Origin: Myxacorys almedinensis A
GTDB taxonomy: Bacteria > Cyanobacteriota > Cyanobacteriia > Leptolyngbyales > Leptolyngbyaceae
Length of the DNA stretch: 64,000 nt
Direction of reading: 5' to 3'
Assembly (NCBI RefSeq): GCF_010091945.1
Contig: NZ_WVIE01000012.1
Coordinates: forward strand, 1 to 64,000
In this document: positions 19,962 through 34,449 of the stretch, piece by piece
How the letters are laid out: every line of letters starts with the position of its first letter
Numbering within the stretch: position 1 is the stretch's first letter
Translations under genes and position numbers: made by a program
Notes under the pieces: model-generated
Told to the model about the DNA's origin: nothing
The model's input: only the letters and a program-made list of their open reading frames with translations
The model's database searches: none

Positions 19962-22900
19962 GTTTCCATTCAACTGATTTCCCCAGCGAGTGGGGACGAG
20001 AGATTAATCATACGACTCGATCCAATTCTTTCAGTTTCCATTCAACTGATTTCCCCAGCGAGTGGGGACATTGAAAATTCATACTATCCCTCCGAAGGTT
20101 TGATAGAGTTTCCATTCAACTGATTTCCCCAGCGAGTGGGGACCGGAGTGTGATTGGGGTGAGACCAGAGCGCTTCTAATTTGTTTCCATTCAACTGATT
20201 TCCCCAGCGAGTGGGGACCCTGGATAGCTGCGTATGAGCAGGCGATAGAGGTTGGGTTTCCATTCAACTGATTTCCCCAGCGAGTGGGGACTTATATATA
20301 TATATAGCCACGCCTCCCCCCTTACGTGTTTCCATTCAACTGATTTCCCCAGCGAGTGGGGACCTTTTTGACGTGCGGCAGCTTCAGGGCTTGCAAGACC
20401 GCGTTTCCATTCAACTGATTTCCCCAGCGAGTGGGGACCGAAATAAGCTATAACGGAGACCTGCTAACTGAGATCAAGTCGTTTCCATTCAACTGATTTC
20501 CCCAGCGAGTGGGGACTTGGGTTGATTGGATTTTAGGGTCGCTTGGTACGCTTGTTTCCATTCAACTGATTTCCCCAGCGAGTGGGGACCCCAAATTATG
20601 ATGCCAGGATACCCGGAGAATTTAAAGTTTCCATTCAACTGATTTCCCCAGCGAGTGGGGACTTTACTCTGCGCTACGTGCCCGATCGCATTGTCCTGCT
20701 GGGTTTCCATTCAACTGATTTCCCCAGCGAGTGGGGACCTGTTCTTCGGTCTTTGAGACGCAAAGCGCCACCGCGAACAGAGCTAGAAAAACAATCAGTA
20801 TCGTTTCCATTCAACTGATTTCCCCAGCGAGTGGGGACTCTTAAGACAAAAGTCAAACGAAGTCAAGTCAAGAATTATGGGTTTCCATTCAACTGATTTC
20901 CCCAGCGAGTGGGGACGGGACTATGTTCGCGCTAACCGCGACAAGTATTGGGCGTTTCCATTCAACTGATTTCCCCAGCGAGTGGGGACTGTTTAACAAA
21001 TAAGAGGTCTTCCCATGAATATCCAATCTGTTTCCATTCAACTGATTTCCCCAGCGAGTGGGGACTAACCAATCTGCTAGGGCTTGGACGTTTATCCGTC
21101 CGCTGTTTCCATTCAACTGATTTCCCCAGCGAGTGGGGACGACTCGCGATCTGGATTTTTCTACTGTTTCTTTTCTTGATGTGTTTCCATTCAACTGATT
21201 TCCCCAGCGAGTGGGGACCCAGATGACCAGACACCTTCACCCATGGGTTCAGAGTTTCCATTCAACTGATTTCCCCAGCGAGTGGGGACATCGTTGTACT
21301 CGGTAAGGCTGATTGAAAGATTCAGCGGTTTCCATTCAACTGATTTCCCCAGCGAGTGGGGACCCGAAGTTGAAGTAATCAAAAACGGACAGCTAGTTAG
21401 TTTCCATTCAACTGATTTCCCCAGCGAGTGGGGACCCTCGCGGAGGCGCTCGGGTGGCAGCAAGATCTCGAAGGGTTTCCATTCAACTGATTTCCCCAGC
21501 GAGTGGGGACAATGGAGGACACAGTTGATTAGGCTATAAGTCGCGGCGAAGTTTCCATTCAACTGATTTCCCCAGCGAGTGGGGACATAAAAGTTTTAGC
21601 GCTTGAACTCTCCCCACAGAATGTTTCCATTCAACTGATTTCCCCAGCGAGTGGGGACACCCAATGGCTAAATGATTGGCTAACCCAATGGCTAAATGGT
21701 TTCCATTCAACTGATTTCCCCAGCGAGTGGGGACAAAGCTTGCACTAATCCATCAATCACTCTATTCAGCGTTTCCATTCAACTGATTTCCCCAGCGAGT
21801 GGGGACGCCGGGAAGATTGGAACATCTACGGACAAAATGGCACTAGATGGTTTCCATTCAACTGATTTCCCCAGCGAGTGGGGACTCGAGAAGTGAACCG
21901 TAAGCAAACAGATCAAAGTGTGTTTCCATTCAACTGATTTCCCCAGCGAGTGGGGACTGCTGTGGCGATCACGGGCGGCGCAATTAACGGCACCGCGAGT
22001 TTCCATTCAACTGATTTCCCCAGCGAGTGGGGACTTGAATCAGGGTTATCCAGTTGGGAGAACTCGGATATCAAGAGTTTCCATTCAACTGATTTCCCCA
22101 GCGAGTGGGGACATGCGGGGTTGAGTGTTCTACTACAACCTCTAACGCTGGTTTCCATTCAACTGATTTCCCCAGCGAGTGGGGACATTTCATTGAAACG
22201 GAAAGAGTGCAAGAACTATTCAGTGTTTCCATTCAACTGATTTCCCCAGCGAGTGGGGACAATTGGCATCCGCGGGGCGACCGGGGGAGATTTTGAAATG
22301 TTTCCATTCAACTGATTTCCCCAGCGAGTGGGGACCGATGAAGATGTTTATAATCTTCAGGTTACCGTAGGCACTTCTGAGTTTCCATTCAACTGATTTC
22401 CCCAGCGAGTGGGGACATCGGATATAATTTACCGGGAATTGATTTAAGCAAGATCAGTTTCCATTCAACTGATTTCCCCAGCGAGTGGGGACTTCATAAT
22501 CAGGGGGGACGTGAAAGGATTTTCCCAAAGTTTCCATTCAACTGATTTCCCCAGCGAGTGGGGACCATCAACCAAACAAAGGAGAAAAAACCATGCAAGA
22601 TTGTTTCCATTCAACTGATTTCCCCAGCGAGTGGGGACTCACGTTTTGCGTTCAGCAGCAGGAATGCCAAAATCGGTAAGTTTCCATTCAACTGATTTCC
22701 CCAGCGAGTGGGGACGCCCCAAACGACTGTTCTTCCATGATCGAGGCTAAGTTTCGTTTCCATTCAACTGATTTCCCCAGCGAGTGGGGACGGTAGATGG
22801 GGAATATCCGTTACGTCGCGAACCGGTTGAGCTAGTTTCCATTCAACTGATTTCCCCAGCGAGTGGGGACAATCTAGCGGATCTAGCAGCAAGCCTTGTT

Positions 22901-24454
22901 CATTTAAAATTGTTTCCATTCAACTGATTTCCCCAGCGAGTGGGGACACAGACGGAGCCGCCAGCTTTCGCAACGCCGAGCGATCGAGTTTCCATTCAAC
23001 TGATTTCCCCAGCGAGTGGGGACGTGAATGAGTGTTTGAAGCAAGGCGTCACGAACAAGTTTCAAAGTTTCCATTCAACTGATTTCCCCAGCGAGTGGGG
23101 ACAGAGAATCAAAGTCGGCCTGGATTCTGGAATATTGGTTTCCATTCAACTGATTTCCCCAGCGAGTGGGGACTTGCTCTTTCACCCACAGCCCCCAGCC
23201 TGCACCCTTATTTACTGGTTTCCATTCAACTGATTTCCCCAGCGAGTGGGGACCTTCTGGGGGAAACAGGCGGAAGTCGTGACCAACTTCGTCGTTTCCA
23301 TTCAACTGATTTCCCCAGCGAGTGGGGACTTTCCAACCACTGTAGGGTCTCGATCTGATGAAACAGTTTCCATTCAACTGATTTCCCCAGCGAGTGGGGA
23401 CCATTTAGAGAAGCGATCTAAGAACACGCCGCTTAAGGACTGTTTCCATTCAACTGATTTCCCCAGCGAGTGGGGACCAAACTTGAATTTACAGTTAGCG
23501 GCGTCAATCCAAGTTTCCATTCAACTGATTTCCCCAGCGAGTGGGGACCCTGCAACCATCCCTCGGTTACTCGTCCCTGTAAATAAGTTTCCATTCAACT
23601 GATTTCCCCAGCGAGTGGGGACGATAAGACGGATGAAGAAGCACGAACTCAGGAAAGCTTTGTTTCCATTCAACTGATTTCCCCAGCGAGTGGGGACATT
23701 ATACTCTAGCCGGGATTTTGTCTTATATTGAAGGTTTCCATTCAACTGATTTCCCCAGCGAGTGGGGACCTGAAGCTTCAGATTTTTGGCAGTTAATTGA
23801 TCAAGCCATTTCTCGTTTCCATTCAACTGATTTCCCCAGCGAGTGGGGACCTTCAGCAACGCCAATAAGCGCTATGACGCGCCCTTAGTGAGTTTCCATT
23901 CAACTGATTTCCCCAGCGAGTGGGGACCTAGGTCTACATCCTCCCCGGTGCTAGTTTTTTTGAGTTTCCATTCAACTGATTTCCCCAGCGAGTGGGGACC
24001 GAGATTGAAGTAATCAAAAACGAGCAAGTGATTAAAGATGTTTCCATTCAACTGATTTCCCCAGCGAGTGGGGACCCGAATAAAATTGACTCTTTTGACG
24101 GCTAGACTCATAGCGTTTCCATTCAACTGATTTCCCCAGCGAGTGGGGACGACTCGAAACCGCTCCTGTCTCCGTCCCCGATCTCCCGACTTGTTTCCAT
24201 TCAACTGATTTCCCCAGCGAGTGGGGACACCTTTACAAAGGAAATGCAATCATTGTCTACACAAAAGTTTCCATTCAACTGATTTCCCCAGCGAGTGGGG
24301 ACTCGAAAAAGAAATCACGACAATTGTTGAAAAATCTTACGGGTTTCCATTCAACTGATTTCCCCAGCGAGTGGGGACATCAAATTTGACTTTGCGATCG
24401 TCTGTCCGCTCCCTGATGGTTTCCATTCAACTGATTTCCCCAGCGAGTGGGGAC
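19962..24454 (-). CRISPR. CRISPR array, 60 repeats and 59 spacers
   Basis: The 36-bp repeat reads on the plus strand from GTTTCCATTCAACTGATT to CAGCGAGTGGGGAC. I placed 60 copies, from 19962-19997 to 24419-24454, and saw no substitution in any. Spacers are 35-45 nt, except one of 64 nt at 20739-20802. Transcription is assigned to the minus strand: read that way the repeat starts GTCCCC, forms the hairpin CCCCACTCGCTGGGG, and ends TTGAATGGAAAC, the usual form for cyanobacterial type III arrays. The leader and cas genes lie at the high-coordinate end. The newest spacers should therefore be near 24400 and the oldest near 20000. No degenerate terminal repeat is present. Confidence 0.98.
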
Positions 24455-24639
24455 CCCTTTTATTGAACCTGATTAGTAGCAGCTTGTCTAGCCATCGTTT
24501 GCGAAGGATCTTTTTACAAGAGCGTAAACACTGCATCACACACTCCCAAAAACGCTCGAAATCTTCTCCAGCCAAGCCACCGAGGGTTTGAACGAAAACT
24601 CAAGCATCTTCACCGATTCCTCCATCCCCCGCGACCTCA
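24455..24639 (-). promoter_or_regulatory. CRISPR leader
   Basis: This 185-base stretch separates the cas2 stop from the first repeat. On the minus strand it contains TTCGCAAACGATGG about 40-60 bases before the array, similar to the TTCGCAAAC-type element seen in leaders of related cyanobacterial arrays, and an AT-rich run (CAATAAAAGGG) immediately before the repeat. No convincing gene lies here. The crRNA precursor promoter and the Cas1-Cas2 integration site are expected in it. Confidence 0.7.
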
Positions 24640-24921
24640 CTACACCACAATCGACCCCGGCACCTGAGTAATGGGCACCCCGCCCCACGTTTCCACCTGC
24701 CGCAACGTATGCCCAGAAATCGGATAAAACCGTATGCTATCTTCCTGCAAATTCACCCGCTGCCGCATCCGTTGCCGCAACTCCTCATACTTCACCACAG
24801 GCAAAACACACTCAAACACCGAATATTGCACCCGCCGCCCATACCCTTCCAACAGATCCGCCACCTTCTTACGACGGGCATTACATGGAACATCATACGT
24901 CACCAAATAGAGCAACATCAT
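24640..24921 (-). CDS. cas2: CRISPR adaptation protein Cas2
   Basis: A 93-residue ferredoxin-fold protein that bridges two Cas1 dimers in the spacer-integration complex. The diagnostic first strand is LLYLVTYDVPCNARRKKVAD with the conserved Asp after TY, and the second is VQYSVFECVLP. Length is typical (85-100). It overlaps cas1 by four bases (ATGA at 24918-24921), so the pair is translationally coupled. The leader and array begin right after its stop, which suggests that this array is the one this Cas1-Cas2 pair feeds. Confidence 0.96.
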   Translation of the reverse strand: MMLLYLVTYDVPCNARRKKVADLLEGYGRRVQYSVFECVLPVVKYEELRQRMRQRVNLQEDSIRFYPISGHTLRQVETWGGVPITQVPGSIVV

Positions 24922-25913
24922 CGAATCAAATAAGGTTTATAGCCAACCCTGGGATCTCGCACAAAATCTCGATACAACTTCACCTGTCGGTTTAGCAGAT
25001 CCCAACGAGGCTGCTCCTCATCCCCCTCTCCAAGCCGCTCTTCCATGCGCTGAATAAACGATCGTAAAAAGGTCTTCCGCCCCGCATCATTTAGATAGCA
25101 TCCCCCATTATCCGCCCAATCAAAATCTTCATCCACCCGCATCACCCCCCGATTCACCAAATACAACACCAAAGAATCCACGATCGGGGCACGAAACTCC
25201 TCAACCAAATCAGACGCCAACGCCGCATGACGCTCAGAACCCACATGCAAACAGCCCTCGTAGGGATCTAACCCCTGCAACTCAATCAAACTCAGAATGT
25301 GATTCCACAAAATCTGATACCCAAAACTCAGCATCGCATTCACCGGATCTTTTGGGGGACGCCGCGATCGCTCCTCAAACCGAAACGCCTCATTCGTAAA
25401 ACACTGCCCCAACGCCGCAAAATAACACGCCGCGCCCGCCCCCTCAAACCCCATCAACTGCTCGATCGACGTTGCCTGCTCTGCCCGATAGATCAAATAA
25501 CTCAACCCCCGAATCGCAGACGCCATCTCTGCCAACAGAGACTGACGCCGCTGCTGCCGCTGCAACATCACCCGACTATTTTTCAACTTTGCCTGCACAA
25601 TGCTCACCGCACTGCAAAAGCACTCAGCCTCTAATAGCGATCGCTGCTGCCGCGCCAAGGTTCGATATCCCCGCTCGATCGACAACAGCCGCCCATAGCA
25701 ACGCCCCATCCGCGATAGATACACGATCGGAATATTGCGCCACAAACATGCCCGAATCGCCTGAGTCGTCACCTGCGATTGGCTAAAAATCAAAATCTGT
25801 TCTACTAACGGCAGTGCCACATCTTGCAAAACAGTCTTGCCCTGCTTCACCAAAATGTGCTCTTGCTTTAACGACAAGTAACAGCCCGGTTGAGCTACAT
25901 AAAGCGATCGCAT
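24918..25913 (-). CDS. cas1: CRISPR integrase Cas1
   Basis: A 331-residue spacer integrase. The metal-binding triad is visible as Glu157 (MGFEGAG), His223 (CLHVGSERH) and Glu238 (ASDLVEEFR). The N-terminal beta-rich domain includes LWRNIPIVYLSRMGRCYG. The protein has no reverse transcriptase or Cas6 fusion, unlike many type III Cas1 proteins. I take the ATG at 25913; a GTG one codon upstream is equivalent. A dedicated Cas1-Cas2 pair inside a III-B-like locus is notable, since many III-B loci rely on another system for adaptation. About 145 bases of spacer separate it from the CARF-HEPN gene. Confidence 0.96.
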   Translation of the reverse strand: MRSLYVAQPGCYLSLKQEHILVKQGKTVLQDVALPLVEQILIFSQSQVTTQAIRACLWRNIPIVYLSRMGRCYGRLLSIERGYRTLARQQRSLLEAECFCSAVSIVQAKLKNSRVMLQRQQRRQSLLAEMASAIRGLSYLIYRAEQATSIEQLMGFEGAGAACYFAALGQCFTNEAFRFEERSRRPPKDPVNAMLSFGYQILWNHILSLIELQGLDPYEGCLHVGSERHAALASDLVEEFRAPIVDSLVLYLVNRGVMRVDEDFDWADNGGCYLNDAGRKTFLRSFIQRMEERLGEGDEEQPRWDLLNRQVKLYRDFVRDPRVGYKPYLIR

Positions 25914-26061
25914 CACCCTTCAGCCTCTCATGCGTCTACCTCACTGTATCGAGCAGGAAAGACGAGATCAGGAGTGGATTTTGCGGAACTTTGGGCAGTT
26001 AGTACAGAGTTATGTCTGTGAATGTTCTAGGGTTGTAGCTCGTAGGCTGCGATCGCCTTTT

Positions 26062-27570
26062 TTAGAGAGATGCGATCGTGTCTTTCAACTCCTGATGTAC
26101 CTTTGCCATAAAACTAGTAGACTTGATTGATTCAAAATTGCTCGTTGAGTCTACCTGAGCAATAAAGTTTAGGCAGCCTAACAGAACAGCATTCCACTCT
26201 TCAACGTTGGTAGCTTTCCAGGCTTGAAATAAATTCTCTTCTTGCAAGCCTAAGAGCCGATGAAACTGCTGATTTCTCTCATCTTTTGCACTATACAAAA
26301 CCGTCTTTATGTACTTATTTTTCTTAGACTCCGGTCGAACCGTTTCAAAAAGCATGTATAGGCTCTGACTGAATAGTCCTGTACTCAATGGAAGCCCTTC
26401 TTGACCTTTATCTATAGACTGCTGATTTTTTTCACGCTGTTCAGTGAGCCATTTCTTCTGCTTCTCTTCTATTCTCTCCCAGTATTCCGGCAAGATGTCC
26501 TTAATGCGCTCAGTGACTTGAGGAGAGCCTTTTTTGTCATAGACTATATAGTCTTTGTACGTCGTCTCTGCCCAGATACAAATTAGCCCTTCCACGGATC
26601 GAAAGCTATGAAACAATGCATCCACAATACTGCCTTGACGGTGACGAATAACAGCTAAATAGGCAGACTCATAGCCAAAAGACCACCATTTAAAATCTTC
26701 TGCTTTGATAAAATTCGAGTTCAATAGTAAGTCTCGGAAGCTCTGGAAATCCGCCAAATTCCACTGAATTCCCGCATCTAAAAAAACTTGTGTCTGAGTA
26801 TCAAGTGCCCCACCAATCAAAACCTTGACACCTGCATAATCATAGCGATCGAGCAGTGCTTTAGCTTCCTGTAAACGAATTGCACCGAGGTATTTAGAAC
26901 TTGCGATCGTATGAGTTCTATCCTCCCGATACTCACTACTGACGAGGAATTTAACACGATCGCCAAACTTCGCCAAACTCGCAAATTGCACCGCCGAAGA
27001 AATTGCTGGAGTTCCTGCCTGATGGCTCACATAAACCGTCTCTGGTTCAATGTTCAAACTTCTAATTTCCCGCTGCACCAATCCCAGCACCGCATCCCAA
27101 TTATCCAACCCACGATCGACAGAATCTGGTTTTAGCAGCAATGGTGTCAGCAGTGCCTCTGGAAAATGCTCACAAAAGTAGCGCTCCAAAATTGGATAAA
27201 GCAGACAAGTATCCTGCCAGTAGGGAGAGCGGTTTGTGTCGCGTTCCGATTCAGGAAAGACATCCGCTTGATCGCTCATCAGCACGATGATTTGAGTGAT
27301 CTCCACTGCTTGTTTCTTCAACTCCTGCGTAAACCCATCCAACAGCGGAAAGGTGAGGTTGGGTTGAATCGCCTCCGCCAAGCGGTCATAAGCAATCCCT
27401 AGCACCCTTGCAGGCAAGCGATAGGGTTCATTCTCATCATCCGTTGCTCTAGTTGGCTTAAACGGCAGCCTTTGAATCGATTTTTTAATCGTCCGATACC
27501 AATCATTCCAATCCTCATTATTTGTGAGTTGCACATCGCTACTTCCCGTTGTTACTAGCCAAATATTCAT
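26062..27570 (-). CDS. CARF-HEPN ribonuclease (Csm6/Csx1-like)
   Basis: A 502-residue predicted accessory RNase switched on by cyclic oligoadenylate. The N-terminal Rossmann-like CARF domain starts with NIWLVTTGSSDVQL and carries the ligand-loop signature VSHQAGTPAISSAV near 180-195, which matches the GGTPA-type loop of Csm6 and Csx1. The C-terminal helical domain (about 280-502) carries DERNQQFHRLLG, a HEPN Rx4H motif at Arg432 and His437. I start at the ATG 12 bases after the stop of the RAMP gene; a TTG start would overlap it. It is the only effector nuclease gene in the locus. Exact subfamily is uncertain; the domain calls are moderately firm. Confidence 0.75.
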   Translation of the reverse strand: MNIWLVTTGSSDVQLTNNEDWNDWYRTIKKSIQRLPFKPTRATDDENEPYRLPARVLGIAYDRLAEAIQPNLTFPLLDGFTQELKKQAVEITQIIVLMSDQADVFPESERDTNRSPYWQDTCLLYPILERYFCEHFPEALLTPLLLKPDSVDRGLDNWDAVLGLVQREIRSLNIEPETVYVSHQAGTPAISSAVQFASLAKFGDRVKFLVSSEYREDRTHTIASSKYLGAIRLQEAKALLDRYDYAGVKVLIGGALDTQTQVFLDAGIQWNLADFQSFRDLLLNSNFIKAEDFKWWSFGYESAYLAVIRHRQGSIVDALFHSFRSVEGLICIWAETTYKDYIVYDKKGSPQVTERIKDILPEYWERIEEKQKKWLTEQREKNQQSIDKGQEGLPLSTGLFSQSLYMLFETVRPESKKNKYIKTVLYSAKDERNQQFHRLLGLQEENLFQAWKATNVEEWNAVLLGCLNFIAQVDSTSNFESIKSTSFMAKVHQELKDTIASL

Positions 27571-27581
27571 GAGTGCTCTAA

Positions 27582-29225
27582 CTACCAAAGTTTTTCAAAA
27601 TCACTGTTATCCCGCAGAAACTTGAGAAAATCCTGCGTTTTAGAAACCTCATCTGGGTTGCCCGATCGATTTGGGAAAATCGTCAGTAGCTCGACAAATT
27701 GTTCTGTCTTTCGCGGCGGCGTTTTCTCCGCCAGAGGCGGTAAATAGCGGGGATACATCCGATGCCACATTCGCCCAATTTGCCCCATTTTGCCAGTTAG
27801 GTCGGAGCGATAAATTGAGTTTTGTCCATGATAGGCTCCATGAAACCATCTCACCGCTACAGAATCATCCTCATCCTCCGCAATCCGTCCCCAAACTTCG
27901 ACATTCTCTTTGCGCCAGGTTTCCTTCATCGTGACATCAGGGGGTCTAGGCGACAGATCTTTCAACATTGGAAATCCTGCAATTTTGCCCTGCAACCCAT
28001 CTAGAAATCTCGTCACATCTGATAATTGCTTCACCGGAACACAGAAACTCAAGGACTTTTCCAGCAACTCCCAATGACATCCGATCATACATTTGTGTGA
28101 ATCCTCCAAGTACTTTGGAAAAAACAGACGATGATCCGTTCGTCGCCAAGATTTGCCAAAACCTCCTAGTAGCAGTGAAAATTTGATGATCTGAGTTAGC
28201 AAAATTTTAAGGTTTTTGCGTTGCTGCTCTGATACATCTTGCATGACCAATAAGTTAAGGGTTGCTTCTCCCGTGTCATACACTGAAGCGCGATACTGAT
28301 CGCGAAGTTCTAAATCTGGCGCGTTGAAAGCAGTTCCTAACTTACCTGCGATCGCGCCGTCTCTCCCTAAAAAGCCGCCCCACAGTTCCTTAGTAAATCG
28401 TTCTGCCGTTGCTTCATCAACGATTCCACTCAACAATCGGTGGGTATGCCCTCGCAACGCTGCTTTGAATACATTCGGACGAAACTCTCCAGTTTTATCA
28501 ATACGCTGAGAGGCAATACCTTCGCCACACAGCCGCACGGTTAGTAGATTGCTCTCGCCGTGGTTTCTCGTTTGTCCATAGCCTGCACTGACGCGCGAAC
28601 CAATGCCGCGCCCAATCGCCTGCTCCCAAATCTGCCAGATGGTTGCCCATTCTGTTGAACTCAAAACCTTATTGCTAGAGATCCCGAAAACAAACGTAGG
28701 CTGATACAGCGAAATTTGAATAAATGCGCCATTGTTTTTCTGTCCATTTAGCTGCCAGTCTTCTTGCGGATGCACCACATCAACAAGTGAATCATCCAAC
28801 CACTTAGCATCTTTAGGATAGCCGCCGTGAAAGCGCAATAGACCCGGCTGGAGTTCCCCGTCTTTGCCCTTGCCGCCACAAAAGCGCAGCACATCTAGTG
28901 GACAAAGTTGCCTACAAGCTCTCAAAAAAGCACCCTTCATACTAGAGCCAGGAAAATAAGCCCAGCCCCGCTCTCCAATCACCGGACGAATCACCCCCGC
29001 ATCTTGACCGCTGTTTGTCACCATGCGCCAAGTGAATCTGTGCTCACGAGTTTGCACATGTGCCTCAAACGTCGGCACCGTTTTGCGATCGCAGGCTTCT
29101 TGCCATTGCTGCGCCCAGTCATAGGCTTGTTGCTCTGCTTTCTGGCTGGGAATTAACCGTTGAATCTGCGATCGCTCCTCTACTTGCGCCTGAAACATTA
29201 ACGGAACATAGTCATGATCCGACAT
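27582..29225 (-). CDS. Two-module RAMP protein (Cmr6/Cmr1-like) of type III complex
   Basis: A 547-residue protein with two RAMP (Cas7-like) modules. Module 1 (about 60-225) has FPGSSMKGAFLRACRQL, the Cmr6-type motif, and the glycine-rich loop GRGIGSRVSAGYGQTR. Module 2 (about 247-480) has FRPNVFKAALRGHTHRLLSG and its own loop LLGGFGKSWRR, more Cmr1-like. A canonical III-B operon encodes Cmr1 and Cmr6 separately. Neither exists separately here, so this protein probably supplies both, capping the 3' end of the crRNA-bound backbone. It lies 12 bases after cmr5. The fusion interpretation is inference; RAMP membership is clear. Confidence 0.8.
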   Translation of the reverse strand: MSDHDYVPLMFQAQVEERSQIQRLIPSQKAEQQAYDWAQQWQEACDRKTVPTFEAHVQTREHRFTWRMVTNSGQDAGVIRPVIGERGWAYFPGSSMKGAFLRACRQLCPLDVLRFCGGKGKDGELQPGLLRFHGGYPKDAKWLDDSLVDVVHPQEDWQLNGQKNNGAFIQISLYQPTFVFGISSNKVLSSTEWATIWQIWEQAIGRGIGSRVSAGYGQTRNHGESNLLTVRLCGEGIASQRIDKTGEFRPNVFKAALRGHTHRLLSGIVDEATAERFTKELWGGFLGRDGAIAGKLGTAFNAPDLELRDQYRASVYDTGEATLNLLVMQDVSEQQRKNLKILLTQIIKFSLLLGGFGKSWRRTDHRLFFPKYLEDSHKCMIGCHWELLEKSLSFCVPVKQLSDVTRFLDGLQGKIAGFPMLKDLSPRPPDVTMKETWRKENVEVWGRIAEDEDDSVAVRWFHGAYHGQNSIYRSDLTGKMGQIGRMWHRMYPRYLPPLAEKTPPRKTEQFVELLTIFPNRSGNPDEVSKTQDFLKFLRDNSDFEKLW

Positions 29226-29237
29226 TTTGCTTATCCC

Positions 29238-29636
29238 TCAATTTTTAGGTTTCTTGTAGCGCTGCGTCCACCAGACAAGGCTATCGCAAAGCTCAATCAA
29301 AATTGCTAGTGCGATCTTACGTTCCTCAATATCAAAAGCCCACAGCTTTTCTGACATCGCCTTGATTGATCCAGTATTTTGAGGACTCACCTTATCATTG
29401 GGAATCGTGATGCCTGCTTGCTTCATAATTTGGCAAAGCGCATCCCAAGTTGCTTTCCAAAATGCCGCTTTGTCCCGCTCCTTTTGCTCAAGTCGCAAAT
29501 GTTCGCCCCAAAAGCGCTCTAGCCCATAGGCAGTTGTTGCTCGCATCTTGTGGCTTTCGCCTAGCACCTCGCGATCGCGAAACTTTATGATTAGTTCTTG
29601 AGCAATCCGATCGATTTCGTATAGCTTCCAACTCAT
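29238..29636 (-). CDS. cmr5: Small subunit Cmr5
   Basis: A 132-residue, almost wholly alpha-helical protein in the position and size class of Cmr5 (Cas11), the small subunit that lines the target-RNA groove of the type III-B complex. Visible features are amphipathic helices around FWKATWDALCQIMKQAGI and ERKIALAILIELCDSLVWW and a basic end (QRYKKPKN). Sequence conservation in this family is low, so the call rests mainly on size, helix content and location. Its ATG overlaps the cmr4 stop by four bases. Confidence 0.7.
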   Translation of the reverse strand: MSWKLYEIDRIAQELIIKFRDREVLGESHKMRATTAYGLERFWGEHLRLEQKERDKAAFWKATWDALCQIMKQAGITIPNDKVSPQNTGSIKAMSEKLWAFDIEERKIALAILIELCDSLVWWTQRYKKPKN

Positions 29637-30457
29637 GCGGCTACTCCTTCACCCTTCAACGTGATTTGACAATTTCCAAATCCGATTGACTCTAACCCAC
29701 CCAAGTAAATCTCACCACTCTGATTGCCTTCGCCAAAGGGCTTCCAAACATCCTCCGTTTCGCGAATGGCAATCGGAAACACCATCACTGTGCCTTCAGG
29801 TAAAGCTTCGGTATTGAAGAATCCGCCCCTATCCACCACCCGTTTTTCATCATCTTTCAGGTGCACTCGGCTTTGACGATACAGCGCCATGTCGTGAATC
29901 ATTCCAATCTCATCGTCAGCCACAACCACCGCAGGTAATTCTTCACCATCAGGAAACCAATGTTTTAGACTCTCTGTTTTCTTAAGATCCAAAAATCCAA
30001 AGTTAAAGAAGAGTTTCTGTTTACGTTCAACGTTAAGTGTTTTCAGCGTTGATGAACCTGTATATTTTTCTGGCACCCTAGCATTTTTCAGTTCGCCGCC
30101 CACAATGCGCTGATAGCGTTTTAGCAGTTTGGGAGAAGTAACCCAAACTACAGGCTGTCCTGGGCAAAAAACCGGAAGCCATAGCAACGACGCATATTCA
30201 AACTTCACTACCGATTCTGTAGTCGAATCTGACTCCCCTGTTTCCGCAGGCGCACCATACCACTGGTGTTCACTACCTGCCAAATCACGTCGCATCTCCG
30301 ACCTAAAACGTCCGCGAATTGAACTCCCTGGAACAATTCCTGTCTGCGTAAACTGATCGCGAAAAATCAGATTGAGGTTGCCGCTTTCTTCGCCTGCTGT
30401 AGCTCCCACATGCAGCGGGGCTAGGGCTTCGATAATTCCGTAGGCTCGTTTGTACAT
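29633..30457 (-). CDS. cmr4: Cas7-like backbone subunit Cmr4
   Basis: A 274-residue RAMP that polymerises along the crRNA. The N-terminus is typical (ALAPLHVGA near residues 11-19, then GIVPGSSIRGRFR). In Cmr4 and Csm3 the target-cleaving Asp lies five residues before the conserved Arg (DxPIQRE or DNPVIRD). Here the same segment reads GNLNLIFRD, with Leu28 at the Asp position and Arg33-Asp34 conserved. Backbone cleavage of target RNA may therefore be lost. The C-terminal glycine-rich strand (IYLGGLESIGFGNCQITL) is present. It is part of the minus-strand cmr operon and overlaps cmr5 by four bases. Confidence 0.85.
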   Translation of the reverse strand: MYKRAYGIIEALAPLHVGATAGEESGNLNLIFRDQFTQTGIVPGSSIRGRFRSEMRRDLAGSEHQWYGAPAETGESDSTTESVVKFEYASLLWLPVFCPGQPVVWVTSPKLLKRYQRIVGGELKNARVPEKYTGSSTLKTLNVERKQKLFFNFGFLDLKKTESLKHWFPDGEELPAVVVADDEIGMIHDMALYRQSRVHLKDDEKRVVDRGGFFNTEALPEGTVMVFPIAIRETEDVWKPFGEGNQSGEIYLGGLESIGFGNCQITLKGEGVAA

Positions 30458-30468
30458 GACTATTCTCC

Positions 30469-31482
30469 TTATGCGACACCATCAATTTCAACCGGAAGAC
30501 ACAATCCACACCCAAAATGCTTGAGTGGCAGTCCTTCCCTGGGAAACCACTCTTCTGGAAAATCCCACCAGGTTTTTTCCAAGGGTTTCTTAAATACATA
30601 GACTGTCCCTGGTGGCACAGCATAGCGCCCACGCCCTAGTCTGCCTCGCTGTGTTGATCGCTGACCGATGCGATAACGGTAAGGAATCGGTTTATCCGTC
30701 AGCATCTTCATTCCTGCTCGCGGGAATTCAGAATGCTTCGGATAACGGTGGGAGAGATGCTTAGATCCCCAAATCCCAGGAACAATCAAAGCACAGGCTT
30801 TCTGGATCTTGGTGTTGAGTAATTCATAAATCGGGCTGTCGGGCTTGATTTCCTGCGAGCTAATCTCAACCATATGCCCTTCACCCCCAAACCGATACCA
30901 GCCATCCGGCAACGGATAAGTGGATAGATAAACCAAACAATGGTCTTCGTCCATCTGCACTGCGTTCTCTAGAAACAGCCCATCCTGATCTAAAACATGC
31001 CGCTCATCGGACTTCATCTGAGGATGCAGAAACGACACATATTCCCAGGGCACCTTGCTCATTTCCTGATTATTCCGAATCTTTGAAGCGTTGCGTTGCC
31101 ATGCGTCAATGCTTTGCCAGCGATAAGGAATCTCGATATCCTGCTTGGCTGGATCACGTTGCCATTGGCGTTGGGCATTCAGTTTCCATTCATCATCTTT
31201 ATCGTCTTCAATGAGTCGGTGGCGCGGTATTGGCACGTAGAATGTGTCTGGATCATCCTGTTTTGCCCAGAAAGGTCCAGAGACAAATAGCTCATGCTTT
31301 AGAGTTTCGTGCGGCGCGATTTCATGACGCTTATTCTCGCTAAAAAAGAGTCCTGCAAGGGTTGCTGCATCGGGCGGAAATTTAGACCCTGAGCGCCCTA
31401 TTAGGTTTTCGGGCGACAAAAAAGCGCCAGAACTGCCATAAAGAAAGCCCAAAGGAGACACAACAATTAGGTATTTGAACAT
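30469..31482 (-). CDS. cmr3: Cas5-like subunit Cmr3
   Basis: A 337-residue RAMP expected to bind the 5' handle of the crRNA and contact Cas10. Cmr3 features are the N-terminal strand FKYLIVVSPLGFLYG, the central FGGEGHMVEISS (the GGEGR-type motif), and the C-terminal PPGTVYVFKKP strand with FGCGLCLPVE. It starts at the ATG at 31482; a GTG three codons upstream is also possible. The gene overlaps the end of cas10 by 16 bases, so the two are co-translated. Confidence 0.85.
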   Translation of the reverse strand: MFKYLIVVSPLGFLYGSSGAFLSPENLIGRSGSKFPPDAATLAGLFFSENKRHEIAPHETLKHELFVSGPFWAKQDDPDTFYVPIPRHRLIEDDKDDEWKLNAQRQWQRDPAKQDIEIPYRWQSIDAWQRNASKIRNNQEMSKVPWEYVSFLHPQMKSDERHVLDQDGLFLENAVQMDEDHCLVYLSTYPLPDGWYRFGGEGHMVEISSQEIKPDSPIYELLNTKIQKACALIVPGIWGSKHLSHRYPKHSEFPRAGMKMLTDKPIPYRYRIGQRSTQRGRLGRGRYAVPPGTVYVFKKPLEKTWWDFPEEWFPREGLPLKHFGCGLCLPVEIDGVA

Positions 31483-33038
31483 AGCTGCCACCCCACTTGC
31501 ACTAAATCATGAATCCACTGCACAACTGCTGCATCGGTGTTGTCACCAGCTATCGCACGCCACTGACCCTCTTCCTGAGGATGATTTTGAATTTCCTGAC
31601 CTAAATCGTCAAAGTAGAGATCAAGCATAGCTAACGCAATATCTCGATCGATTGGGTTCTGATTGACCTCTCGAAATCGAATCGCATGACGCGATCGCAA
31701 GTGCGCCCAGTCGTTGTATAGATGAGTCCAGTTTCGACAGCGATCTAGAATCGGTAAATGCTGCCAAGGGCAAGTCCATTGCACAAACTGTCCGCTATTG
31801 AAGAGAACTCGAATGGTAACGCGATCGCGCCCTTTATTTTTTGCGATCTTCTCTGCTTCGCGGCAATGCTGAAGAACATCCCGTTGAGGAACTCGATTGG
31901 CAGCCCAGACAAATCCCATGCTGACGTTGATATTCTGACCGTGGGTTTGCCACTGCTGATCAAATTGCTTCAACCAGACCAAGGCTTGATTTGATAAATC
32001 GCTACTCTTAAGTTCAGAGTTGTAGAGAATGCCCAAGAAGTCATCTCCACCAGCATAAACGACCCGACCCAACTTTCTAGGAAAGCCTTTTTTGAAAGCT
32101 TTACCCCAATCCCGCATCGCTTTGCTGAAGATTGTTTGTTCTTCATCAGACGTGATCGTTTTCAGTTTGTCCCCTACTTTGTCGCCATCTCCCATAAACC
32201 AGCCCGTGTTTGCCTCGCGCTTAATTTCTGTAAAGCCTTCTCCTAACGGAGTCATCCCGATGGTCTCGGCGATTGGCGTGTAGGTCACAAGACGTTTAAC
32301 GAGTTCAGGAATGCTGAGACGTTCATTAATAGCAATGTATTTGCCAATATCATCCGGCTTAGATTCCTCATATTCTTTTAATGCTGCTATCGACAACGGA
32401 GGTTTCCCAATGCGCTCATCTGGAGCATCCAGTAGCCAGGATAAACGTCGGTAGAAAAGCTCAAGTTCTTCCCTGAATTGCTGATGTTGGTCGGGTGTCA
32501 AAGATTTTCCTAGATCGCGAACTTCACCCAGACGCGGTCCTGCGATCGCATCGGTTCCACTCAAGCTTGAACTTTCACCCACCCAATTGATTCCTGTCCA
32601 ATCTCGCTTCAGTTTGCGGCGTTCTAGATCCAGCATTGCTTCATCTGGTTCAGATCCCTGTCCCCAAAAGATCTCCCAGGTATATTGTTTCCAGCGTAGC
32701 CATTCTACTTGCCAGCAGAACTGTTCTTGAGGGAATGCTTCCTGCTCTAGCCAAGTCTGGCATGTGACAAGCACATGCTCCCACGCTTTAATCAGTGTGT
32801 TTGTCACCTCATTGCGATTAAAGTCACCTTTAATTAAAATCCGATTTGGCATTCCTTCTTGAACATTGATGAGCGCTGGAGAAATGACGATGAGATCGGG
32901 TGGCTGATCAGCCGCTTCAGCCAGCTTTTGGCTCAGGTAAGACAAAATTAAAGAAGCTCCGTACAAGTCGCGTAACTTACGAGATTTTTCGATGAATCCC
33001 TGTACGGGAGCAAAGCTGATCGCCGTGTACTTGGACAT
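31467..33038 (-). CDS. cas10: Cas10/Cmr2, cyclase-type signature subunit
   Basis: A 523-residue large subunit of the type III complex. The first palm domain starts YTAISFAPVQGFIEKSRKLR, and GDGD is at 283-286. The second palm carries the cyclase motif YAGGDDFLG, with GGDD at 330-333, so cyclic-oligoadenylate synthesis is predicted. It is much shorter than Cmr2 proteins that carry an N-terminal HD nuclease, and I see no HD motif and no zinc-finger cysteines. Target-activated ssDNA cleavage is therefore unlikely. It is the first gene of the cas operon, whose promoter lies in the 244 bases shared with the divergent WYL regulator. Confidence 0.93.
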   Translation of the reverse strand: MSKYTAISFAPVQGFIEKSRKLRDLYGASLILSYLSQKLAEAADQPPDLIVISPALINVQEGMPNRILIKGDFNRNEVTNTLIKAWEHVLVTCQTWLEQEAFPQEQFCWQVEWLRWKQYTWEIFWGQGSEPDEAMLDLERRKLKRDWTGINWVGESSSLSGTDAIAGPRLGEVRDLGKSLTPDQHQQFREELELFYRRLSWLLDAPDERIGKPPLSIAALKEYEESKPDDIGKYIAINERLSIPELVKRLVTYTPIAETIGMTPLGEGFTEIKREANTGWFMGDGDKVGDKLKTITSDEEQTIFSKAMRDWGKAFKKGFPRKLGRVVYAGGDDFLGILYNSELKSSDLSNQALVWLKQFDQQWQTHGQNINVSMGFVWAANRVPQRDVLQHCREAEKIAKNKGRDRVTIRVLFNSGQFVQWTCPWQHLPILDRCRNWTHLYNDWAHLRSRHAIRFREVNQNPIDRDIALAMLDLYFDDLGQEIQNHPQEEGQWRAIAGDNTDAAVVQWIHDLVQVGWQLCSNT

Positions 33039-33282: not shown

Positions 33283-34449
33283 ATGCATCCCTACAGTGAA
33301 TTCAAAGCCTTCACACGATTGCTCTTACTGATTACAACCTTCGTTCAGTATCCGGGAGTGGGTTCGCCCGATCCGTTTGTAGAAGAGGACGATCATGATG
33401 CAATGGAAGCAGTACTAACGCGAATGAAAACAATATCAGAAACGCTAGGAATCGAATTTTTAGATTGCTCTGTACACACATTGCGTAAAGATCTTAAAAC
33501 GCTGCGGCAGTATGGCATTTTAGATCAACGTATGTATCGCTGGGGCTACTATCTGGGCACAGGCGCGCTCGATCGTGCTGAGCTACAAGCGGCATGGCAA
33601 GCGTTACAGATTCAGGCAGAAGCGCAGGGAGATCCGCAAATTCGTCAGGTAGTGAAGCAACTTGAGCAACGGCTGCGAGGGTTGAATCTGGAGTTGCAGG
33701 GCGAACTGTTTTATCCGGTGCGATCGCAGTCCCATCAAGTTATTCTCTACACCGATCCGGATGAGCTTCGACAACGGGGCATCTATGAGCGAGAGACCCT
33801 ATTTGAGTGTTTAGAAGATCTCGAAAGCGCGATCGTCCAGGGGCAAGCGGTCGAGATTTATCATGCACGAGACCCCTACCATCAGAAGCCACGGGGATTT
33901 TTGCAGGTATACCCACTGCAATTGCTCTACCACGATATTGCTTGGTATCTGGTCTATGAGGAGACGGAGACAGGGCAGTTTGTGACGATGCGGGTAGACC
34001 GGTTGGCGGCTCAGTGTCGCAGACTGGAGATGGCACCACGGGGAACCGCGATTCAATTGCAGCAGTTGCGCCGGGTAGAGCAGTTGTTGCGCGATGGGTG
34101 GGGCATCAATTTGGGGGAGCGTGAGGAGCAACAGCAGGAGCTATCAGGACAACCGACGGCAGTGAAGGTAAAGGTGCGCTTTTTTGAACGGGTGGTGCCG
34201 TTTATTGTGGAGGGAAATCGGCGGCATCCGAAACAGACACTTCAGGTGGTGAAGAATGGGGCGGGGCAGGTAGAGGCAGTGGATTATGCGGTGGTGTTAC
34301 CGCGCCGATCGCTGGAGGAGTTTTTTCGATGGGTGAATCGGTTTTTGGAGCAGGCGCAGGTGTTGGCTCCGGTGGAGTGGGTGGAAAAGTATGCGGTGCG
34401 ATCGCAGCAGATGATGGAGCGCTATTCGCAAAGGGGAAGCGGAAAATGA
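33283..34449 (+). CDS. WYL-domain transcriptional regulator
   Basis: A 388-residue regulator. The N-terminus (about 1-90) is a winged-helix DNA-binding part with CSVHTLRKDLKTLRQYGIL. The WYL domain (about 175-275) contains LLYHDIAWYLVYEE. A C-terminal WCX-like extension has VRFFERVVPFIVEGNRRHP. WYL proteins commonly sit beside cas genes and repress or tune them in response to a nucleotide-like ligand; in Synechocystis a WYL-type protein affects CRISPR RNA levels. Its divergent position makes the cas operon the obvious target. Whether it activates or represses is unknown. Confidence 0.88.
   Translation: MHPYSEFKAFTRLLLLITTFVQYPGVGSPDPFVEEDDHDAMEAVLTRMKTISETLGIEFLDCSVHTLRKDLKTLRQYGILDQRMYRWGYYLGTGALDRAELQAAWQALQIQAEAQGDPQIRQVVKQLEQRLRGLNLELQGELFYPVRSQSHQVILYTDPDELRQRGIYERETLFECLEDLESAIVQGQAVEIYHARDPYHQKPRGFLQVYPLQLLYHDIAWYLVYEETETGQFVTMRVDRLAAQCRRLEMAPRGTAIQLQQLRRVEQLLRDGWGINLGEREEQQQELSGQPTAVKVKVRFFERVVPFIVEGNRRHPKQTLQVVKNGAGQVEAVDYAVVLPRRSLEEFFRWVNRFLEQAQVLAPVEWVEKYAVRSQQMMERYSQRGSGK

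Follow-up and report, generated by a model that had tools for sequence, protein, structure and literature searches.

Two spacers, 19 and 54, of a CRISPR (clustered regularly interspaced short palindromic repeats) array in the cyanobacterium Myxacorys almedinensis A are certainly related at the DNA level. They were probably acquired in separate events, spacer 19 first and spacer 54 later from a diverged homologue, the likeliest being the same gene as carried by a related phage or plasmid. The array lies in the 64-kb stretch analyzed here (positions 1 to 64,000 of contig NZ_WVIE01000012.1, henceforth the window), and the features which carry this reading are the following (nt, nucleotides):

19962..24454, minus strand: CRISPR array of 60 repeats of 36 nt and 59 spacers; minus-strand transcription is suggested by the GGAAAC repeat end and the layout
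21364..21399, minus strand: 36-nt spacer 19, the probable older one of the pair; its plus strand reads EVEVIKNGQLV
24000..24039, minus strand: 40-nt spacer 54, the probable newer one of the pair; its plus strand reads EIEVIKNEQVIKD
21370..21387, no strand assigned: 18-mer shared by the pair, in spacer 19 (spacer positions 7-24)
24005..24022, no strand assigned: 18-mer shared by the pair, in spacer 54 (spacer positions 6-23)

The shared 18-mer, TTGAAGTAATCAAAAACG, occurs twice in the window against a chance expectation of 0.02, and no other site for it is present there at up to three mismatches. When all 59 spacers are compared with one another on both strands, this 18-nt run is the longest, with the runner-up pair sharing 10 nt and the maximum across 2000 simulated arrays being 15 nt. 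The alignment of the two spacers spans 35 columns, of which eight differ (4, 5, 24, 25, 28, 29, 31 and 32), all of them in the flanks of the shared core. Further, the ends are offset by 1 nt on the left and 5 nt on the right, and all 60 copies of the repeat GTTTCCATTCAACTGATTTCCCCAGCGAGTGGGGAC in this array are identical, pointing to low point drift. An earlier interpretation made without database searches (henceforth the sequence-only reading) had given the coordinates of the spacers exactly, both spacers indeed belonging to this one 60-repeat array. Its proposal that the two were acquired separately, from diverged copies of one sequence, finds good support in the unequal lengths and ends, the eight changed columns of 35, the unchanged repeats and the comparable pairs in relatives.

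Diverged spacer pairs in related arrays and probable order in time

The window spacers were compared with those of seven arrays from four relatives in the family, for a total of 452 spacers in 8 arrays; one of these is a single-spacer array, the stretch taken for G401 holds 180 of 181 repeats, and the G185 arrays are those among the matches listed. At a BLAST E-value of at most 1e-4, 12 pairs are recovered (7 identical and 5 diverged or overlapping), each within one array, while 20 simulated sets gave no pairs at this threshold. Addition of seven arrays from named cyanobacterial plasmids extends the set to 703 spacers in 15 arrays, in which four diverged pairs are recovered at the same threshold, with none in any of 20 simulated sets. 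All four fall within one array, within-array pairs being 29046 of the 246753 possible; random placement would achieve this with a probability of about 0.0002, a figure to be read in light of two of the four pairs sharing one array and hence not being fully independent. Three of the four are on the same strand and one on opposite strands. A further pair, G401 161/43, is presumably lost from the larger set because E-values rise with set size.

The clearest parallel to the window pair is provided by spacers 109 and 132 of array L040 in G401 (SAGGSMLYRELQ and SAGGNMLTYKQLQN), which show 80% identity over 40 nt on the same strand, with a frame-keeping gap of 3 nt and left ends 1 nt apart. Additional diverged or overlapping pairs are spacers 63 and 67 of array L040 in G401, on opposite strands, and spacers 14 and 22 of array L045 in G185, on the same strand with an offset of about 11 nt. 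As the clear diverged pairs fall within single arrays, hosts seem to resample their own parasites, leaving a few pairs per hundreds of spacers. The long-standing local parasite envisaged in the sequence-only reading fits the four clear diverged pairs, each within one array, without being established by them.

Exact copies are also seen in these arrays. In L040, spacers 44-49 are repeated in tandem as 50-55, an exact six-spacer block, and spacers 15 and 123 are identical though far apart; Synechocystis 6714 has one adjacent identical spacer pair.

The 5' tags of cyanobacterial CRISPR RNAs (crRNAs) tend to have GGAAAC as their last letters, and the reverse complement of the window repeat likewise has GGAAAC at its 3' end. 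Among the relatives, L041 and L044 of G185 and L042 of G413 resemble one another over 185 nt of their cas2-side flanks (97% between L041 and L044, 68% between L041 and L042), and changed repeats lie at the end far from cas2 in L041 and L044, with two internal ones in L042. Since these cas2-side flanks are alike and the changed repeats of L041 and L044 sit at the far end, the leader of the three arrays lies on the cas2 side. The cas2-side flank of the window array (24455-24639) shows no likeness to that of the same-repeat arrays (three arrays in two relatives), and a leader on its cas2 side is suggested by the layout. Counted from the newest of the 59 spacers under this polarity, spacer 54 would rank 6th and spacer 19 would rank 41st. 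That the two acquisitions were far apart in time, as previously proposed, is hence plausible from array position, with the polarity itself taken over from the relatives.

Coding potential, searches for the source and competing explanations

The target of the spacers is likely to be protein-coding in their shared plus-strand frame. This frame is open in both spacers and its translation had been given correctly in the sequence-only reading. Six codons differ, of which two are silent, three conservative (V/I, L/V and V/I) and one non-conservative (G/E). The protein score of the plus frame is joint best among the six frames, tied with an antisense frame that spacer 19 interrupts by a stop; another of the antisense frames is likewise open in both spacers, with a lower score.

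In nucleotide searches with blastn, spacer 54 matched 71 phage records (lowest E 0.2 among the 20 matches listed) and 115 plasmid records (lowest E 0.1 among the 20 matches listed), with no cyanobacterial name among the tallies listed for either. Spacer 19 matched 25 phage records (lowest E 1) and 12 plasmid records, where the lowest E, 0.03, belongs to a 27-nt match in the pilM gene of an Anoxybacillus plasmid. The whole array matched 9 phage records (lowest E 1) and 20 plasmid records, 18 of which are cyanobacterial; we take the latter to be repeat matches, and seven of the eight cyanobacterial plasmid loci fetched hold an array, L168 being the one without. The 18-mer was found in a single IMG/VR stretch with flanks unlike the spacers, and at up to one mismatch in 42 genomes of the family, including that of the host itself, the sole outside match is in G185, again with unlike flanks and antisense within a 692-codon open stretch. 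Two 16-mers from the right half gave 8 and 18 IMG/VR stretches, none of them extending. Among loci L009-L072 (the four window loci left out), the best ungapped match is 27 of 36 bases, with 16 of these forced by the query.

Degenerate peptide patterns gave nine IMG/VR stretches, a variant gave five (four on the same contigs) and a shorter pattern one, with no protospacer among them. Such patterns gave six bacterial or archaeal contigs in one genome per species of 84,980 species, likewise without a protospacer, and their sole match in 386 genomes of the phylum was the window itself. The 15 matches from IMG/VR (nine) and these contigs (six) comprise four tail-collar proteins, two copies of one other protein and nine others; given this mixture, a peptide match alone names no gene. 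A lack of known sources for cyanobacterial type III-B spacers agrees with the report on Spirulina (A. platensis), in which virtually no spacer source was identifiable for the type III-B system (PMC5513706).

Two phage protein families with a similar peptide came up in these searches and were retained as leads only. The first (A1) is a large protein whose role is not known; it has the motif GYDxxxWTTGxQQ and agrees with spacer 19 at no more than 26 of 36 bases. It accounts for at least 408 of at least 600 stretches (80 retained); among its members, L021 reads EVEIIKNDQILES and L083 has KNGQ near the corresponding place, and 190-residue pieces of L012 and L021 fall below every Pfam cut-off. This large phage protein is widespread (L012, L021, L073-L152). 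The other lead, the tail-collar fibre N-terminus (A2; pattern M-[AS]-R-T-E-[IV]-E-I-I-K-D-G-K-[IV]-V), agrees with spacer 19 at no more than 25 of 36 bases, and accounts for four of the nine IMG/VR peptide-pattern stretches, with 7 of 278 IMG/VR stretches being its relatives. Its first 66 residues matched 347 phage records, the lowest E being 1 among the best 40 of 347 listed. In 42 genomes of the order, searched without a positive control, A1 had no matches and A2 one weak match (G422). In a survey of spacer targets, tail fibre genes were hit less than expected, 19 versus 28 (PMC6401485).

Several of these observations weigh against two captures from diverged copies of one gene. Identity is unevenly distributed: all 18 core columns are conserved, unchanged codons among them, versus 9 of 17 flank columns, an imbalance that even synonymous change within a gene would not produce. 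No protospacer of either spacer was found in the phage, plasmid, IMG/VR and genome collections, and a common gene as best match for both spacers and the 18-mer, the support named in the sequence-only reading, did not emerge from them. At a relaxed E of at most 0.01, the 452-spacer set gives 10 non-identical pairs, two of them across arrays (L042 63/L046 36 and L045 8/own 27), a number near chance level by our estimate. The earlier claim that the differences are mostly synonymous or conservative holds for five of the six codons, but as a protein argument it is weak: eight random flank substitutions score at least as high in 7.7% of 20000 trials (P = 0.077), and in a translated all-against-all comparison, in which the pair scores 39, the unrelated pair 31/44 reaches 35. 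Additionally, a plus frame is open in 58 of the 59 spacers and a minus frame in 57, making strand bias uninformative.

The uneven identity is what might be seen if the shared stretch were conserved as nucleic acid, be it a mobile repeat or an element with a regulatory or structural role, rather than as peptide, with a course of acquisition overlapping that favored here. Confinement of all eight differences to the 17 flanking columns and the non-significant protein-level conservation speak for such an element. However, the open, joint best-scoring plus frame with its five silent or conservative codon changes of six, together with the rarity of the 18-mer (once in IMG/VR and once more in the 42 family genomes, antisense in G185 at up to one mismatch, each time with unlike flanks), renders it rather improbable. 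A single parasite genome with two diverged copies of the stretch, either as paralogues (for example tail fibres sharing their N-terminus) or as a repeated domain, could likewise have supplied both spacers. Phage fibre genes can occur in several copies, and four of the nine IMG/VR peptide-pattern stretches match the tail-collar fibre N-terminus; nevertheless, no contig is listed twice for the peptide patterns and the fibre family remains a lead at its distance from spacer 19, making a shared genome of origin unlikely.

Duplication within the array followed by mutational drift is a process with clear precedent in its first step, as illustrated by the six-spacer block and further identical pair of G401 and the adjacent identical pair of Synechocystis 6714. 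Yet, those duplicates are exact and keep length and end points, a hallmark absent from spacers 19 and 54, at 36 versus 40 nt with ends off by 1 and 5 nt. As the two spacers disagree in length, in end points and in 8 of 35 columns, with no change in the 60 repeats (2160 nt), a drifted duplicate is disfavored and has little probability left to it. A chance resemblance of unrelated spacers could appeal to the AT-rich core and to no other support; with none of the simulated arrays surpassing a 15-nt run, it can practically be dismissed.

Predicted consequences for guide function

Returning to separate captures from diverged homologues, spacer 19 would have been taken first from one version of a stretch of the parasite, and spacer 54 later from a diverged homologue of the same stretch; we infer this order in time, the coding nature of the target, the number of source elements and the effect on guide function. 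Both crRNAs, read from the minus strand, would be antisense to the open plus frame, as a transcript-sensing Cmr complex needs. With position 1 set at the 5' end of the spacer-derived portion of the crRNA and the differences mapped by hand arithmetic, guide 19 mismatches target 54 at 4, 5, 7, 8, 11, 12, 31 and 32, with the shared 18-mer at 13-30. Conversely, guide 54 on target 19 has mismatches at 9, 10, 12, 13, 16, 17, 36 and 37, with the 18-mer at 18-35 and positions 1-5 falling beyond spacer 19. Positions 19-29 are thus fully matched in either direction. For the Thermus Cmr complex (PMC8376896), cyclic oligoadenylate production is lost when segments 1-5 and 7-12 are mismatched, while binding relies on segments 19-23 and 25-29. 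By these rules, the old guide should still bind the RNA of the new relative with no alarm being raised. Such binding without signaling across the pair would make a second spacer pay, since each guide has a seed that matches the target of the other and a signaling region that mismatches it.

This prediction is tempered by the shorter Thermus complex, whose seed comprises segments 3-4 (13-23); guide 54 has mismatches there at 13, 16 and 17, and the prediction is therefore firmer for guide 19. Moreover, the Thermus rules may not be transferable here, given that no Cmr1 was found among the proteins scanned.

With respect to acquisition, a study of Thermus type III systems lacking a reverse transcriptase (PMC7515739) describes spacers drawn from over the whole genome of phage phiFa with no strong strand bias, of which selection retained the sensors of early transcripts. 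Against phage phiKo, protection came from spacers to every gene class. Unguided acquisition followed by selection, as in Thermus, would be sufficient for two overlapping spacers in one orientation. It is conceivable, but very doubtful, that a seed-matched old crRNA binds silently and steers nearby re-acquisition, as a type III counterpart of primed acquisition in a cyanobacterial type III-B system. The position of the 18-mer over both presumed seeds and the left ends lying 1 nt apart both here and in G401 109/132 are compatible with such guidance. Spacers 14 and 22 of L045 in G185, the third same-strand pair, are offset by about 11 nt, and chance with detection bias would serve equally well.

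The type III-B locus and its counterparts

The window locus is a type III-B (Cmr) CRISPR-Cas system, a familiar type of locus, with the following components beside the array (aa, amino acids):

24455..24639, minus strand: region separating cas2 from the array, a probable leader judged by its position only
24640..24921, minus strand: cas2
24918..25916, minus strand: cas1, 332 aa, matching Cas1 families only
26062..27588, minus strand: Csx1-type CARF-HEPN protein
27582..29225, minus strand: cmr6
29238..29636, minus strand: cmr5
29633..30457, minus strand: cmr4
30469..31491, minus strand: cmr3
31467..33038, minus strand: cas10/cmr2, 523 aa (PADLOC Cas10b, E 7.7e-197)
33283..34449, plus strand: WYL-domain protein

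The features of type III-B membership present are Cas10/Cmr2, Cmr3, Cmr4, Cmr5 and Cmr6, and an array with its own cas1 and cas2. The Cas10/Cmr2 protein is short at 523 aa. No Cmr1 was found among the window proteins scanned, most open reading frames of the window lying outside those scans. Further, no reverse transcriptase was matched as a fusion to cas1 or beside it, the neighbors of this gene being cas2 and the Csx1-type protein; with cas1 devoid of such a match, RNA-based spacer acquisition is set aside. Within the array, 58 spacers measure 35-45 nt, and spacer 11 (20739-20802), at 64 nt, far exceeds all others in length; spacer 23 (21659-21698) holds an internal direct repeat, with ACCCAATGGCTAAATG present twice. 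No further copies of the window repeat, at up to three mismatches, were found elsewhere in the genome.

The familiarity of the locus stems from the array-cas2-cas1 order and a nearby WYL gene also being found on Nostoc and Anabaena plasmids. These plasmids (L161-L163) and pSYSA of Synechocystis 6803 (L165) share with the window a 36-nt repeat starting with GTTTCCA, an array adjoining cas2 and cas1, and a nearby Cas10/Cmr2; in L161-L163, the WYL gene lies beside the module, as it does here. In contrast, all four carry csx18 beside cas1, for which the 145-nt gap between cas1 and the Csx1-type gene in the window is too small (csx18 was not sought elsewhere), and the placement of Cas10 differs: in L161-L163 the array has it on its other side, and in L165 it is encoded on the opposite strand.

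The behavior of the array may also be compared with published systems. The Thermus thermophilus type III system resembles that of the window in acquiring spacers without a reverse transcriptase, and there too one phage region is resampled and kept by selection; however, its phages are known, whereas the targets of the window spacers have diverged and their source was not found (PMC7515739). Several different spacers against one viral open reading frame are likewise recorded in PMC6401485, although as a survey across metagenomes, as opposed to two overlapping diverged spacers in one array. The A. platensis type III-B system differs in being linked to a reverse transcriptase (PMC5513706), with none being matched for the window cas1.

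The pair of spacers 19 and 54 is a real and ordinary trace of repeated infection, one clear example rather than a new principle, and suggests that a single host encountered a parasite on two occasions, in versions that had diverged. Diverged pairs of this kind are short aligned samples of the evolution of an unseen parasite, and they offer a concrete test of the mismatch load that a type III-B guide tolerates before another spacer becomes worthwhile.

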